Source of the DNA: an uncultured Pelagibacteraceae bacterium
GTDB lineage: Bacteria > Pseudomonadota > Alphaproteobacteria > Pelagibacterales > Pelagibacteraceae
Assembly (NCBI GenBank): GCA_902594235.1
Contig: CACJLJ010000002.1
Span: forward strand, 1 to 64,000
Direction: 5' to 3'
Length of the DNA stretch: 64,000 nucleotides
Program-made: the position numbers and the translations under genes
Part shown: in pieces, positions 8,747 to 14,903 of the stretch
How the letters are laid out: each line of letters starts with the position of its first letter
Position numbering within the stretch: the first letter of the stretch is position 1
The notes under the pieces: generated by a model
Seen by the model: only the letters and a program-made list of their open reading frames with translations
Database searches by the model: none
Told to the model about the DNA's origin: nothing

Positions 8747-9249
8747 TAAATGAAATAACTCCTTAAAACCATTAAACAAATTAAAAATAAAACAACATAA
8801 AATCCAGCACAAACATCATCCATGATAACACCAAAACTATTTTTGAAGTTTTTATCAAAATAACTTACTGGAAATGGTTTAGCTATATCGAAAAATCTAA
8901 ATAGAACAAAGCATACAGTATAAAAAATTAAAGACTCCTCGTGTGATTTTTCTGTTCCATGTGAAATTTCATAAAGATAAATTGGAATAGATTGACCAAT
9001 AAATTCATCAATAATCACTTCTTTTGGATCTTTATTTTCATTATTTTTAATATGTAAAGCAACTGCTGGAAAAGAAAAAATAAATACAATAATAAGAATT
9101 ATTAAAATTATATTAGAAGACAGATTTAAGATATGAAAAAAAATATAAAGTGTTACCACTGTGATCAATGATCCAATTGTACCAGGTATTTTTGGAATTT
9201 TTCCTATACCGAGCATTGTAACAAATAATTTATTTAAAGTTTTAATCAT
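8746..9249 (-). CDS. pgpA: Phosphatidylglycerophosphatase A
   Basis: PgpA dephosphorylates phosphatidylglycerol phosphate in the inner membrane. The 167-residue protein shows the family motifs GKIPKIPGTIGSL near the start, EVIIDEFIGQ in the middle, and FRFFDIAKPFPVSYFD followed by GVIMDDVCAGFY, with acidic metal-binding residues, between about four membrane helices. It overlaps ispDF by eight bases upstream and the cinA-like gene by one base downstream, so the three minus-strand genes form a coupled operon. Confidence 0.93.
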   Translation of the reverse strand: MIKTLNKLFVTMLGIGKIPKIPGTIGSLITVVTLYIFFHILNLSSNIILIILIIVFIFSFPAVALHIKNNENKDPKEVIIDEFIGQSIPIYLYEISHGTEKSHEESLIFYTVCFVLFRFFDIAKPFPVSYFDKNFKNSFGVIMDDVCAGFYVVLFLICLMVLRSYFI

Positions 9250-10374: not shown

Positions 10375-12165
10375 ATGTTTGAATTTTTGAAAAAAAATAT
10401 ATTCATAATAATTCTATCTAGTATCACACTATTTATAGGTTTTTTAACATTTTTAACGTTTATTGATAAAAGTTTTGTAGAATTGAACCCAAAAAATTTA
10501 CAATTTTTATTAATTCTTAATATAATATTACTTTTTCTTTTATTCTTATTTATTTTTATTGAAATTAAAAATTCAATTAAAAATGATATTGACAAAGATG
10601 GACTTACCTCAAATAAAAAATATATTACATATTTTTCATTATTTACATTAATTCCCTCAATATTAATTTCAGTCTTTTCATTATTTCTTTTTACTTTCGC
10701 CTTAGAAAAATATTTTGATAAAAAAGTCACAACAGTTGTAAATAATTCATATAAATTAGCTAAAAGCTATGTAGATGAGGTTCGAAATAAGATAGAGGCA
10801 AACATTATTCTCACTGCTTTTGATACTAATAAAAGTGCAAACTTTCTAAATGATGATCCAAAAGCATACTCTCGTTTTTTAAAAACCCAAAAACTTATTA
10901 GAGAAGTTGACGAAATACATATTATCGATAGAGACAAAAATTTAATTTTTACTTCAATTGAGGATTTGAATGGATATAAACCACCCATTGATAAGGCATT
11001 AAATTTAGTTTTAGAGGATGATAGACCACTCAAAATAACTAATGCACCAGAAAATATATCAGCTGCTATCATGAGACTCCAAGCTTTTGATGATAGATTT
11101 CTATATATTATTAAATATTTAGATAAAGATATTTCAAATTATTTGAGTGAGTCACAAGAGGCAATAAATTTCTATTATAATGTAGAAGAAAAAAGTACAG
11201 GTATAAAGATTTCTTTTGCTATAATTTATATAATTATTGTTTCTTTATTGCTTTTTATATCAATTACAATAGCTATAAGATTTTCATCAAGATTTTTTAG
11301 ATCAATAAATAATTTGATTTTAGCTTCAACATCTATAGGTCAGGGAAATTTAAATATAAAAGTTCCTGAACTAAAAACTGACAAAGATCTTGAAAGACTT
11401 AATAAGAATTTTAATTCAATGATTAATAGACTTAGATACCAGCAAGAAAAACTTATCATTAATGAACGGCATGAAGCATGGGGAAGTTTAGCAAGAAAAT
11501 TAGCACATGAAATTAGAAACCCATTGACCCCCATTCAATTAACTATTGATAGAATAAAAAATAAATATTCAGGCAGTTTATCAGAAGATGAAAAAAATAA
11601 ATTCCAAGAAAATTTAAAAATTATAGACAACCAAATAAAACAAATTGAGAATTTAGTAAATGAATTTTCTGATTTTGCAAGAATGCCTAAACCAACTCTT
11701 AAAGATAACAATTTGATTTCAATTTTAGATGAAAATATCAAACTTTTATCACAAATTGATAAATCTATAGAAATTATGCTGACGAAGAGTCATAATGAAA
11801 TAATGCTTAATTGTGATAAAGAACAATTGAGTAGGGTATTTTTTAACCTAATAAAAAATTCAATTGAAAGTATTCAGCAAAAATCTCAAAAAAACCCTGA
11901 TTTTAATAAGAAAATAACAATTGAAATTAAGAAAGATAATGAGCATATTAAGTTTATATTATCAGACAATGGTATAGGTTTTGAAAAAATTAAAAAAAAT
12001 ATTAAGGAAATTTTAAATCCATATTTTACAACTAAAAAAAATGGTACAGGTTTAGGCTTAGCTATAGTAAATAAAATTATTAATGATCATAATGGTGAAC
12101 TTAATTTTTTTCCTATACCAATTGGTGCAAAAATAGAAATTGAATTTAGATTAAATGGCAATTGA
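10375..12165 (+). CDS. ntrY: Sensor histidine kinase NtrY
   Basis: A 596-residue membrane sensor: helices at about 7-28, 40-62 and 84-107, a periplasmic-sized region, another helix at about 277-302, a HAMP linker, then the kinase. The H-box KLAHEIRNPLTPIQL carries the phosphorylated His; the ATP-binding part has N-box NLIKNSIESI, DNGIGFE and the G-box GTGLGLAIV. NtrY pairs with NtrX, whose start overlaps its stop by 11 bases. In other alphaproteobacteria NtrYX influences nitrogen use, redox state and the envelope. The upstream ntrBC pair usual in this neighbourhood is absent. Confidence 0.94.
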   Translation: MFEFLKKNIFIIILSSITLFIGFLTFLTFIDKSFVELNPKNLQFLLILNIILLFLLFLFIFIEIKNSIKNDIDKDGLTSNKKYITYFSLFTLIPSILISVFSLFLFTFALEKYFDKKVTTVVNNSYKLAKSYVDEVRNKIEANIILTAFDTNKSANFLNDDPKAYSRFLKTQKLIREVDEIHIIDRDKNLIFTSIEDLNGYKPPIDKALNLVLEDDRPLKITNAPENISAAIMRLQAFDDRFLYIIKYLDKDISNYLSESQEAINFYYNVEEKSTGIKISFAIIYIIIVSLLLFISITIAIRFSSRFFRSINNLILASTSIGQGNLNIKVPELKTDKDLERLNKNFNSMINRLRYQQEKLIINERHEAWGSLARKLAHEIRNPLTPIQLTIDRIKNKYSGSLSEDEKNKFQENLKIIDNQIKQIENLVNEFSDFARMPKPTLKDNNLISILDENIKLLSQIDKSIEIMLTKSHNEIMLNCDKEQLSRVFFNLIKNSIESIQQKSQKNPDFNKKITIEIKKDNEHIKFILSDNGIGFEKIKKNIKEILNPYFTTKKNGTGLGLAIVNKIINDHNGELNFFPIPIGAKIEIEFRLNGN

Positions 12166-13510
12166 AATATTAATAGTCGATGATAATGCGGATATTAGAA
12201 ATATTCTCAATGAACTTATAATAGATGCTGGATATAAAACTAGACTTGCTGCTAACTATAACCAAGCTTTAAAAGAAATTGATAAAAAAATACCTGATGT
12301 AGCAATTTTGGATGTTAAACTGGATAAAGGAGACAATGATGGAATTGAATTGTTGTCACATATAAAGTCTAAAAACAAAGATGTTCCAGTTATAATTATT
12401 ACGGGACATGCAAATGTTGAAATGGCTGTAAATTCTTTAAAACATGGAGCATTTGAATTTATTGAAAAACCTTTTGATCAAAATAGACTTCTTAATTTTA
12501 TAAAAAGAGCTGTTGAAAATTTGAATTTAAAATCGCAAAATAAAGAGTATGAAAATAGATTATTTTCATCATATGAATTAATTGGTAACAGTAAAAATAT
12601 AATAGCTATTAGAGATCAAATAGAAAAGATCTCTATAACGGAGAGTAGAGTTTTAATTAATGGTCCATCAGGTTCTGGAAAAGAGTTAATTGCAAGAAAA
12701 ATTCACAAGAAATCAAAAAGAAATAATAAACCGTTTATTATATTAAATGGCGCTCTACTAGATGCTGATAAATATGAACTTGAATTATTTGGTGAAGAAA
12801 AATCTGATGGTTCTATTTCATATGGCGCTTTGGAAAAAGCTAATGAGGGCACATTACTAATAGACCAGGTTTCTGAAATACCGTTAGGTATTCAATCAAA
12901 AATTTTAAGAGTGCTAACTGATCAAAAATTCAAAAGACTTAATGGAAATAATGATATAAATGTTAATGTAAGGTTAATTTGTTCATCAAGCAAAGATTTA
13001 AAAGAGGAAATTTTAATAGGTAATTTTAGAGAGGATTTATATCATAGATTAAATGTTTTTGAGATTAATATAAAATCATTAAATGAAAGAATTTCAGATA
13101 TTCCTTTACTAATCCAATATTTTTCTAAGAAAATATCTGAAAATTATAATATTAAAGAATTAAATATTGATAATGATGATAGTTATATTCTTAATCATAA
13201 TTGGCAGGGAAATGTGAGGGAATTGAGGAATTTAATTGAAAGAATTGCAATTTTACAACCCGATAGTAAAGAAAAAGTGTCAAATATTGTAAAAGAATCT
13301 CTTAAAAATAGTGACATTAATAATAAAATTAATGAAAATGATTTATCAATACCGTTAAAAGAAGCTAGAGAAAAATTTGAAAAAGAGTATTTAACTATCC
13401 AATTAAAAAAATTTAATGGAAATATTTCTAAAACAGCAAATTTTGTAGGTATGGAAAGAAGTGCACTTCATAGAAAACTTAAAGGCCTAGGGATTAAAGA
13501 GTTTAATTAA
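12155..13510 (+). CDS. ntrX: Response regulator NtrX with altered AAA+ domain
   Basis: The 451-residue regulator has a receiver domain (1-120; Asp53 in AILDVKL as phosphoacceptor, Lys105), an AAA+ domain (about 140-370; Walker A GPSGSGKE at 170-177, arginine region FREDLYHRLNVFEI) and a C-terminal Fis-type helix-turn-helix (NISKTANFVGMERSALHRKL). Two changes stand out: the sigma-54 contact motif GAFTGA is absent (the region reads SYGALEKA), and Walker B reads GTLLIDQVSEIP, with Gln238 where the catalytic Glu is normal. It therefore probably regulates by DNA binding with sigma-70 and may bind but not hydrolyse ATP. It is coupled to ntrY upstream. Confidence 0.93.
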   Translation: MAIEILIVDDNADIRNILNELIIDAGYKTRLAANYNQALKEIDKKIPDVAILDVKLDKGDNDGIELLSHIKSKNKDVPVIIITGHANVEMAVNSLKHGAFEFIEKPFDQNRLLNFIKRAVENLNLKSQNKEYENRLFSSYELIGNSKNIIAIRDQIEKISITESRVLINGPSGSGKELIARKIHKKSKRNNKPFIILNGALLDADKYELELFGEEKSDGSISYGALEKANEGTLLIDQVSEIPLGIQSKILRVLTDQKFKRLNGNNDINVNVRLICSSSKDLKEEILIGNFREDLYHRLNVFEINIKSLNERISDIPLLIQYFSKKISENYNIKELNIDNDDSYILNHNWQGNVRELRNLIERIAILQPDSKEKVSNIVKESLKNSDINNKINENDLSIPLKEAREKFEKEYLTIQLKKFNGNISKTANFVGMERSALHRKLKGLGIKEFN

Positions 13511-13511
13511 A

Positions 13512-14903
13512 ATGAATATAATAATTTGTGGCGCTGGTCGTGTTGGGTTTACAATAGCTAAATTACTAAGTGAACAAAGTCATTCTATAACTGTTATTGA
13601 CCAGTCTAGCGAAGATATTCAAAAAATTAATGATAGTCTTGATGTAAAAGCGATAGTGGGAAAAGCCACTTTTCCATCAATCCTTGAAAAAGCAAATGCT
13701 AATGAAACAGATATGATCATAGCGGTAACTAGAAATGATGAAATCAATATGCTTATTTGTCAAATTGCTTTTTCAATTTTCCAAATACCGAAAAAAATTG
13801 CAAGAATAAGATCACAAGATTATCTGAATCCAAAATTTACACGTGTATATAGTAAAGAAAATTTGCCTATCGATGTAATTATTTCACCTGAAATCGAAAT
13901 CGCAAAATCTATTCAGCGTAAACTTGAGGCTCCTGGAGCTCTAGATAGTGTTCCGTTTGCCGACAATAATATAAGACTTTTAGAAATTCTTATAAAAGAG
14001 GATTGCAAATCTATTGATATAAAATTTAATGAATTAACCAAAAGATATCCAAAACTTGAAGCAAATATAATTGGAATAAATAGAGAAGATAAATTTTTTA
14101 TTCCAAAAAAAACTGACTCTGTAAAGAAAGATGACAAAATATATGTAATTATTAATTCTTCTCAGATGTCAGAAACATTAGAAGCATTTGGACACTCTGA
14201 AAAAATATCTAAAAAAATTTTGATAATTGGTGGTGGAAATATAGGTTTTAATTTAGCAAAAAATATTGAAGAGACATTGGAAACTGTAAGGGTAAAGATT
14301 GTTGAAAAAAATAAAACTCGTGCTGAATACCTTGCCAGCGAATTAAATGACACAATTGTAATCAATGGTGATGGATTAGATGAAGAGGTTTTAAACGAAG
14401 CAAATTTAGATGAAGCAGAAACTGTTTTGGCTTTAACAAATGATGATGAAGATAATTTAATGGTGAGTGTTTTAGTTGAAAAATTTACGAAAGATCAAAA
14501 AAAATCAGATGATAAAAGAACTATGGCTTTAATCAATAAACCAAATTATTCTTTATTACAATCTTCTTTAAAGATTGATGATTTAATAGATCCAAGAATG
14601 AATACCGTATCTAGTATTCTAAAACATGTTCATAAAGGTACTATTGAAAATGCATATACAATCTCTAACGGTGAGTATGAAGTTATTGAAGCAGAAATAA
14701 TTGAAACATCAGAATTAACGAATAAGGAATTAAAAAATTCAAACCTTCCAGAGGAATTAAGAATAGGTGCGGTATTGAGGGATAAAAAAGTAATTATACC
14801 AACATCTAATTTTATCTTTAAGAAAAATGATAGAGTTGTGTTTATTGTAAAAAAAGACTCAATATCATTTGTTGAAAATATTTTTAGATTAAGCTCTGTT
14901 TAG
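13512..14903 (+). CDS. trkA: Trk potassium uptake regulatory subunit TrkA
   Basis: TrkA is the cytoplasmic nucleotide-binding ring that gates the TrkH potassium channel. The 463-residue protein has two tandem RCK units, each with a Rossmann NAD-binding start: NIIICGAGRVGFTIAKLL at residue 2 and ILIIGGGNIGFNLAKNIEE at about 238, each followed by a TrkA-C domain. It starts one base after ntrX, an association seen in many alphaproteobacteria, and is followed four bases later by its membrane partner trkH, so all four genes from ntrY to trkH are likely one transcription unit. Confidence 0.96.
   Translation: MNIIICGAGRVGFTIAKLLSEQSHSITVIDQSSEDIQKINDSLDVKAIVGKATFPSILEKANANETDMIIAVTRNDEINMLICQIAFSIFQIPKKIARIRSQDYLNPKFTRVYSKENLPIDVIISPEIEIAKSIQRKLEAPGALDSVPFADNNIRLLEILIKEDCKSIDIKFNELTKRYPKLEANIIGINREDKFFIPKKTDSVKKDDKIYVIINSSQMSETLEAFGHSEKISKKILIIGGGNIGFNLAKNIEETLETVRVKIVEKNKTRAEYLASELNDTIVINGDGLDEEVLNEANLDEAETVLALTNDDEDNLMVSVLVEKFTKDQKKSDDKRTMALINKPNYSLLQSSLKIDDLIDPRMNTVSSILKHVHKGTIENAYTISNGEYEVIEAEIIETSELTNKELKNSNLPEELRIGAVLRDKKVIIPTSNFIFKKNDRVVFIVKKDSISFVENIFRLSSV

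Follow-up and report, generated by a model that had tools for sequence, protein, structure and literature searches.

What can the AAA+ domain of an NtrX response regulator still do with ATP when its Walker B motif reads Asp-Gln in place of Asp-Glu and its GAFTGA loop is missing? Glu-to-Gln at this place is the standard laboratory trick by which AAA+ proteins are trapped with ATP; here it occurs in a natural gene, found in the window (the whole stretch of 64 000 nucleotides that was analysed) from an uncultured Pelagibacteraceae bacterium. The original prediction was that, in a lineage reported to lack sigma-54, the protein might have become an ATP-binding switch that works solely via its DNA-binding domain.

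The ntrX gene and its surroundings

The ntrX gene in the window is intact (451 codons in the ORF listing). Its features and neighbours are as follows.

10375..12165, + strand: ntrY, the partner histidine kinase (NtrY_N, HisKA and HATPase_c), overlapping ntrX by 11 bp
12155..13510, + strand: ntrX, ORF for a response regulator of 451 aa (REC, AAA+, Fis-type HTH)
12155..12514, + strand: receiver domain (Pfam), with the phosphoacceptor Asp53 at 12311-12313
12662..12685, + strand: Walker A, GPSGSGKE (Lys176), intact
12746..12748, + strand: Asn198, the 'glutamate switch' partner of the Walker B Glu (PspF N64)
12791..12847, + strand: short L1 stretch ELFGEEKSDGSISYGALEKANEG without GAFTGA, of the same design in NtrX across the class
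12848..12868, + strand: Walker B, GTLLIDQ, with the Gln238 codon CAG at 12866-12868
13025..13051, + strand: arginine fingers, FREDLYHRL (Arg292 and Arg298)
13202..13225, + strand: sensor II motif, WQGNVREL, with Gln351 (13205-13207) in place of the family Pro
13346..13501, + strand: Fis-type DNA-binding domain (Pfam) with the near-invariant NtrX signature GMERSALHRKLKGLGI
13512..14903, + strand: trkA-like gene, downstream of ntrX

The protein has the domains of an alphaproteobacterial NtrX (REC, AAA+ and Fis-type HTH), with Pfam matches to PF00072, PF00158, PF25601 and PF02954 (REC, Sigma54_activat, AAA lid and Fis HTH, respectively); it also has the NtrX HTH signature (GMERSALHRKL), and its gene adjoins ntrY and is followed by trkA. 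Among proteins of solved structure, the best match is to Brucella abortus NtrX (PDB entry 5m7n; E = 1.8e-117). The AAA+ fold was modelled at a pLDDT of about 90, and the structures nearest to the model are the Brucella NtrX crystals, including the ATP complex. The phosphoacceptor Asp53 is unchanged in 79/79 sequences of the genus and 47/47 of the class.

Between positions 9242 and 16314 of the window, ispDF (− strand) diverges from ntrY-ntrX-trkA-trkH (+ strand), with 26 bp separating the start codons, and neither ntrB nor ntrC adjoins these genes. The same order is conserved in the SAR11 loci that are long enough to tell, and ntrY-ntrX-trkA is found again in many other Alphaproteobacteria. 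NtrX is the only strong match to PF00158 in SAR11 genomes, its own included; the weak matches, all to long ORFs (419-872 aa), are probably other AAA+ proteins.

GAFTGA and sigma-54

Both the codons and the alignment with Brucella NtrX confirm that Walker A is kept, that GAFTGA is absent and that the Walker B pair is Asp237-Gln238, in GTLLIDQVSEIP. The L1 stretch aligns without gaps to that of B. abortus NtrX, which also lacks GAFTGA. The motif is present in most enhancer-binding proteins of a named set from outside the Alphaproteobacteria and in 0/80 class-wide NtrX orthologues selected by the NtrX HTH signature. As 56 of these 80 come from genomes with rpoN (and 24 from genomes without), GAFTGA was lost early in NtrX, and its absence, already reported for Caulobacter NtrX (PMC10274813), says nothing special about SAR11. 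The idea that the missing loop is peculiar to SAR11, or a result of sigma-54 loss, was therefore abandoned.

The lack of sigma-54 in SAR11 is itself borne out: a Sigma54_DBD match above the cut-off was found in 0/117 genomes of the order, with none in the source genome, and control genomes gave the expected results. Sigma-54 loss is nevertheless insufficient to cause loss of the Walker B Glu, since many genomes that have no rpoN still encode Glu there: the sister family f2 lacks sigma-54 and has Glu in all 24 of its sequences, and across the class Glu is found in 51/56 NtrX from rpoN-containing genomes versus 20/24 from rpoN-lacking genomes (Fisher p = 0.44). We thus rejected sigma-54 loss as the driver of the substitution.

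Distribution and origin of the Walker B glutamine

Gln238 marks a clade inside Pelagibacter. In the 57 genomes of this Gln clade the residue is Gln in 54, His in two, Asn in one and Glu in none; in an NtrX tree built with column 238 left out, 53 of the sequences (51 Gln and two His) form a clade with a support of 100. Glu occupies the site in the 26 other Pelagibacter sequences of the tree (37 Pelagibacter genomes overall), in the sister genera g5 and g6 and throughout family f2, so that Gln is not the SAR11-wide trait that had been supposed; equally, it is about half, and not nearly all, of the other SAR11 proteins that have Glu. Asn is found in six sequences of genera g2, g3 and g4. A later set of 20 SAR11 genomes fits the pattern, with three Gln and one Asn among the four placed in the clade by identity, 15 Glu and one Asn in g4. 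The size of the clade rules out a sequencing error or a singleton, and Gln is also found in the single cells SAG-MED47 and AAA797-I19 and in AG-430-P08. Gln238 is a derived, clade-defining change with a single origin inside Pelagibacter. Within the clade the site has changed once, against a mean of 2.9 changes per AAA+ site, with about half of the AAA+ sites showing no change.

The preceding Asp237 is kept in 52/53 sequences of the clade. The early-branching L026 (genome G051) has Glu-Gln at residues 237-238 (GTLLIEQ), such that the Mg-binding Asp is changed too. Elsewhere, in other alphaproteobacterial families, L153 and L154 (genomes G254 and G447) and L127 and L157 have Asp-Asp (with His at the place of Asn198) or Asp-His as the Walker B pair.

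The ATP-binding pocket and the sensor II proline

The catalytic Glu has been lost from a pocket that is otherwise kept: Lys176, Asn198, Arg292, Asp294, Arg298 and the sensor II arginine Arg355 are each present in 53/53 sequences of the Gln clade, so that both the ATP-binding and the trans-acting residues remain. Among Glu-type Pelagibacter, three NtrX have His for the first arginine finger, Arg292 (L043 was read directly; L044 and L116 were assigned as its closest relatives in the tree).

The substitution is accompanied by a second one. Pro351 of the motif WPGNVREL is gone from 51/53 Gln-clade sequences, which have His, Lys, Gln or Tyr in its place, and is present in 26/26 Glu-type Pelagibacter. 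The early-branching members G012 and G051 have Gln yet retain the proline, so the change to Gln preceded the loss of Pro351. Over 206 NtrX and NtrX-like sequences, 60 lack Pro351, of which 59 have an altered Walker B pair and one an intact Asp-Glu; in the 20 later genomes the proline is missing from 5/5 non-Glu proteins and present in 15/15 Glu proteins. Phylogenetically independent pairs nearly all point in the same direction, although, being so few, they do not reach significance (median p of 0.25). On the stem branch of the Gln clade the AAA+ domain has accumulated 0.222 changes per site, compared with 0.027 for REC and 0.074 for the HTH. This burst, together with the coupled loss of Pro351, suggests a shift in function.

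Predicted activity of Gln-type NtrX

The E108Q mutant of PspF, a laboratory Walker B mutant, carries the identical substitution at the homologous residue and likewise retains the partner Asn and the arginine finger. It has <1% ATPase activity, binds ATP 30-fold more tightly and is a constitutive hexamer, with the switch pair locked with Asn64, the counterpart of Asn198 in NtrX (PMC4132715). PspF differs from the window protein in having GAFTGA, in acting on sigma-54 and in lacking a REC domain, and the change in the window is natural and fixed. Because the homologous Asn, the arginine fingers and Walker A are all kept, Gln-type NtrX is expected to bind ATP with hardly any turnover, the near-absence of hydrolysis following from the replacement of the catalytic Glu. 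With neither GAFTGA nor sigma-54, remodelling of a sigma-54 polymerase is impossible, and the likeliest mode of action for NtrX is thus to bind DNA at sigma-70 promoters under the control of phosphorylation.

We put the chance at about one in two that Gln-type NtrX is an ATP-binding, non-hydrolysing AAA+ module within a phosphorylation-controlled regulator of sigma-70 promoters, which would probably make it an ATP-holding switch and not a motor. NtrX, the sole member of the NtrC family in these genomes, would be the response regulator of NtrY, phosphorylated by it at Asp53, and its Fis-type HTH would bind DNA at sigma-70 promoters; the AAA+ domain would bind ATP tightly with little or no hydrolysis and, in the ATP-bound state, may form a structural or oligomerization module that works as a binding switch. 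Related NtrX proteins phosphorylated at the equivalent of Asp53 bind CAAN2-5TTG boxes (PMC9223101), and NtrX phosphosites have been detected in SAR11 cells (PMC13198564); our literature search found no biochemistry for any SAR11 NtrX.

The NtrC proteins of Rhodobacter capsulatus and Caulobacter are also GAFTGA-less members of the NtrC family and act at sigma-70 promoters (PMC10274813), although they are NtrC and not NtrX. The R. capsulatus protein reportedly needs ATP binding and not hydrolysis (as cited in PMC10274813). In Caulobacter NtrC, however, the Walker B Asp is required in vivo (D235A; PMC10274813). A protein that lacks GAFTGA can therefore still depend on hydrolysis, which counts against our preferred explanation.

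A stronger version, which we hold only tentatively, is that the fixed Glu-to-Gln change and then the release of the sensor II proline have made the only NtrC-family regulator of this large clade of ocean bacteria a transcription factor that is oligomeric and constitutively locked with ATP, Glu having changed to Asn in parallel in other SAR11 genera. Brucella NtrX is reported (J. Mol. Biol., 2017) to have no ATPase activity and not to oligomerize on binding ATP. The latter argues against the oligomeric part of the explanation.

Alternative explanations

The reported inactivity bears on the main rival: hydrolysis may have been lost long before SAR11, all alphaproteobacterial NtrX holding ATP as a static cofactor while the Glu drifts to Gln, Asn, His or Asp, with the Gln of Pelagibacter having no consequence. 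The B. abortus structures (PDB entries 5m7n, 5m7o and 5m7p) share with the window protein the domains, the HTH signature and the GAFTGA-less L1, but have Asp-Glu and the WPGN proline where the window has Asp-Gln and WQGN. If this wild-type, Glu-bearing protein, crystallized with ATP (5m7n), truly lacks ATPase activity, then hydrolysis had already been lost before SAR11 arose, and the change to Gln may be neutral. The class-wide absence of GAFTGA is in keeping with this, as are the changes in the Walker B pair (at least 12 times among NtrX) and the beta-proteobacterial NtrX of the PlrR type, members of the NtrYX family without sigma-54 remodelling in which the AAA+ domain, kept in SAR11, is missing altogether (PMC13001219). 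Drift, however, sits poorly with the retention of Asp-Glu in 68/91 NtrX and NtrX-like sequences of the class and in all Glu-type SAR11, with SAR11 replacements being limited to Gln, Asn and His and conserved once fixed, and with the functional shift suggested by the stem burst and the loss of Pro351. We consider early loss possible, if clearly short of an even chance. It also tempers the original prediction: an ATP-binding, hydrolysis-deficient domain is still the best reading, whereas 'become' may place the change too recently, given the ATP-bound Brucella protein with Glu.

It is improbable that the AAA+ domain is instead a decaying relic with no functional part, on its way to the loss seen in beta-proteobacterial NtrX. 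Such decay appears to have affected a group of NtrX and NtrX-like proteins from small-genome Alphaproteobacteria (L257, L259, L264, L265, L267, L268, L270 and L272), in which residues of Walker A, Walker B or the arginine fingers are missing in differing combinations and Asp53 of REC is still present; several with an altered Walker B have also lost Walker A or the arginine fingers, and Pro351 is variable within the Gln clade (12 changes). The Gln clade, however, differs from this group in that its pocket is whole despite the Walker B change, and its AAA+ domain is still under strong purifying selection and not decaying: dN/dS is 0.050, compared with 0.055 in the Glu clade (rough values, with dS near saturation), and the domain evolves no faster than in Glu-type Pelagibacter (rate ratio of 0.98, with 1.56 for REC and 0.53 for the HTH).

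Continued hydrolysis, slow or through another catalytic residue, which would leave NtrX an ATPase timer, is just as doubtful: PspF E108Q has residual activity that is stimulated by its target (PMC4132715) and Asp237 is largely kept, but that activity is <1% and no acidic residue has been gained nearby, the Gln-specific changes being T246I and P351H/K/Q. We dropped T246I as an ATPase change, as hydrophobic residues occur there in other enhancer-binding proteins.

Implications

With the Gln clade, NtrX presents a gradient of AAA+ states, from a full Walker B, through loss of the Glu with the pocket kept and erosion of the pocket, to absence of the domain. As Glu-type Pelagibacter are close relatives, the clade-fixed substitution allows a natural test of which of the two, binding of ATP or its hydrolysis, NtrX relies on in bacteria that have very few regulators.
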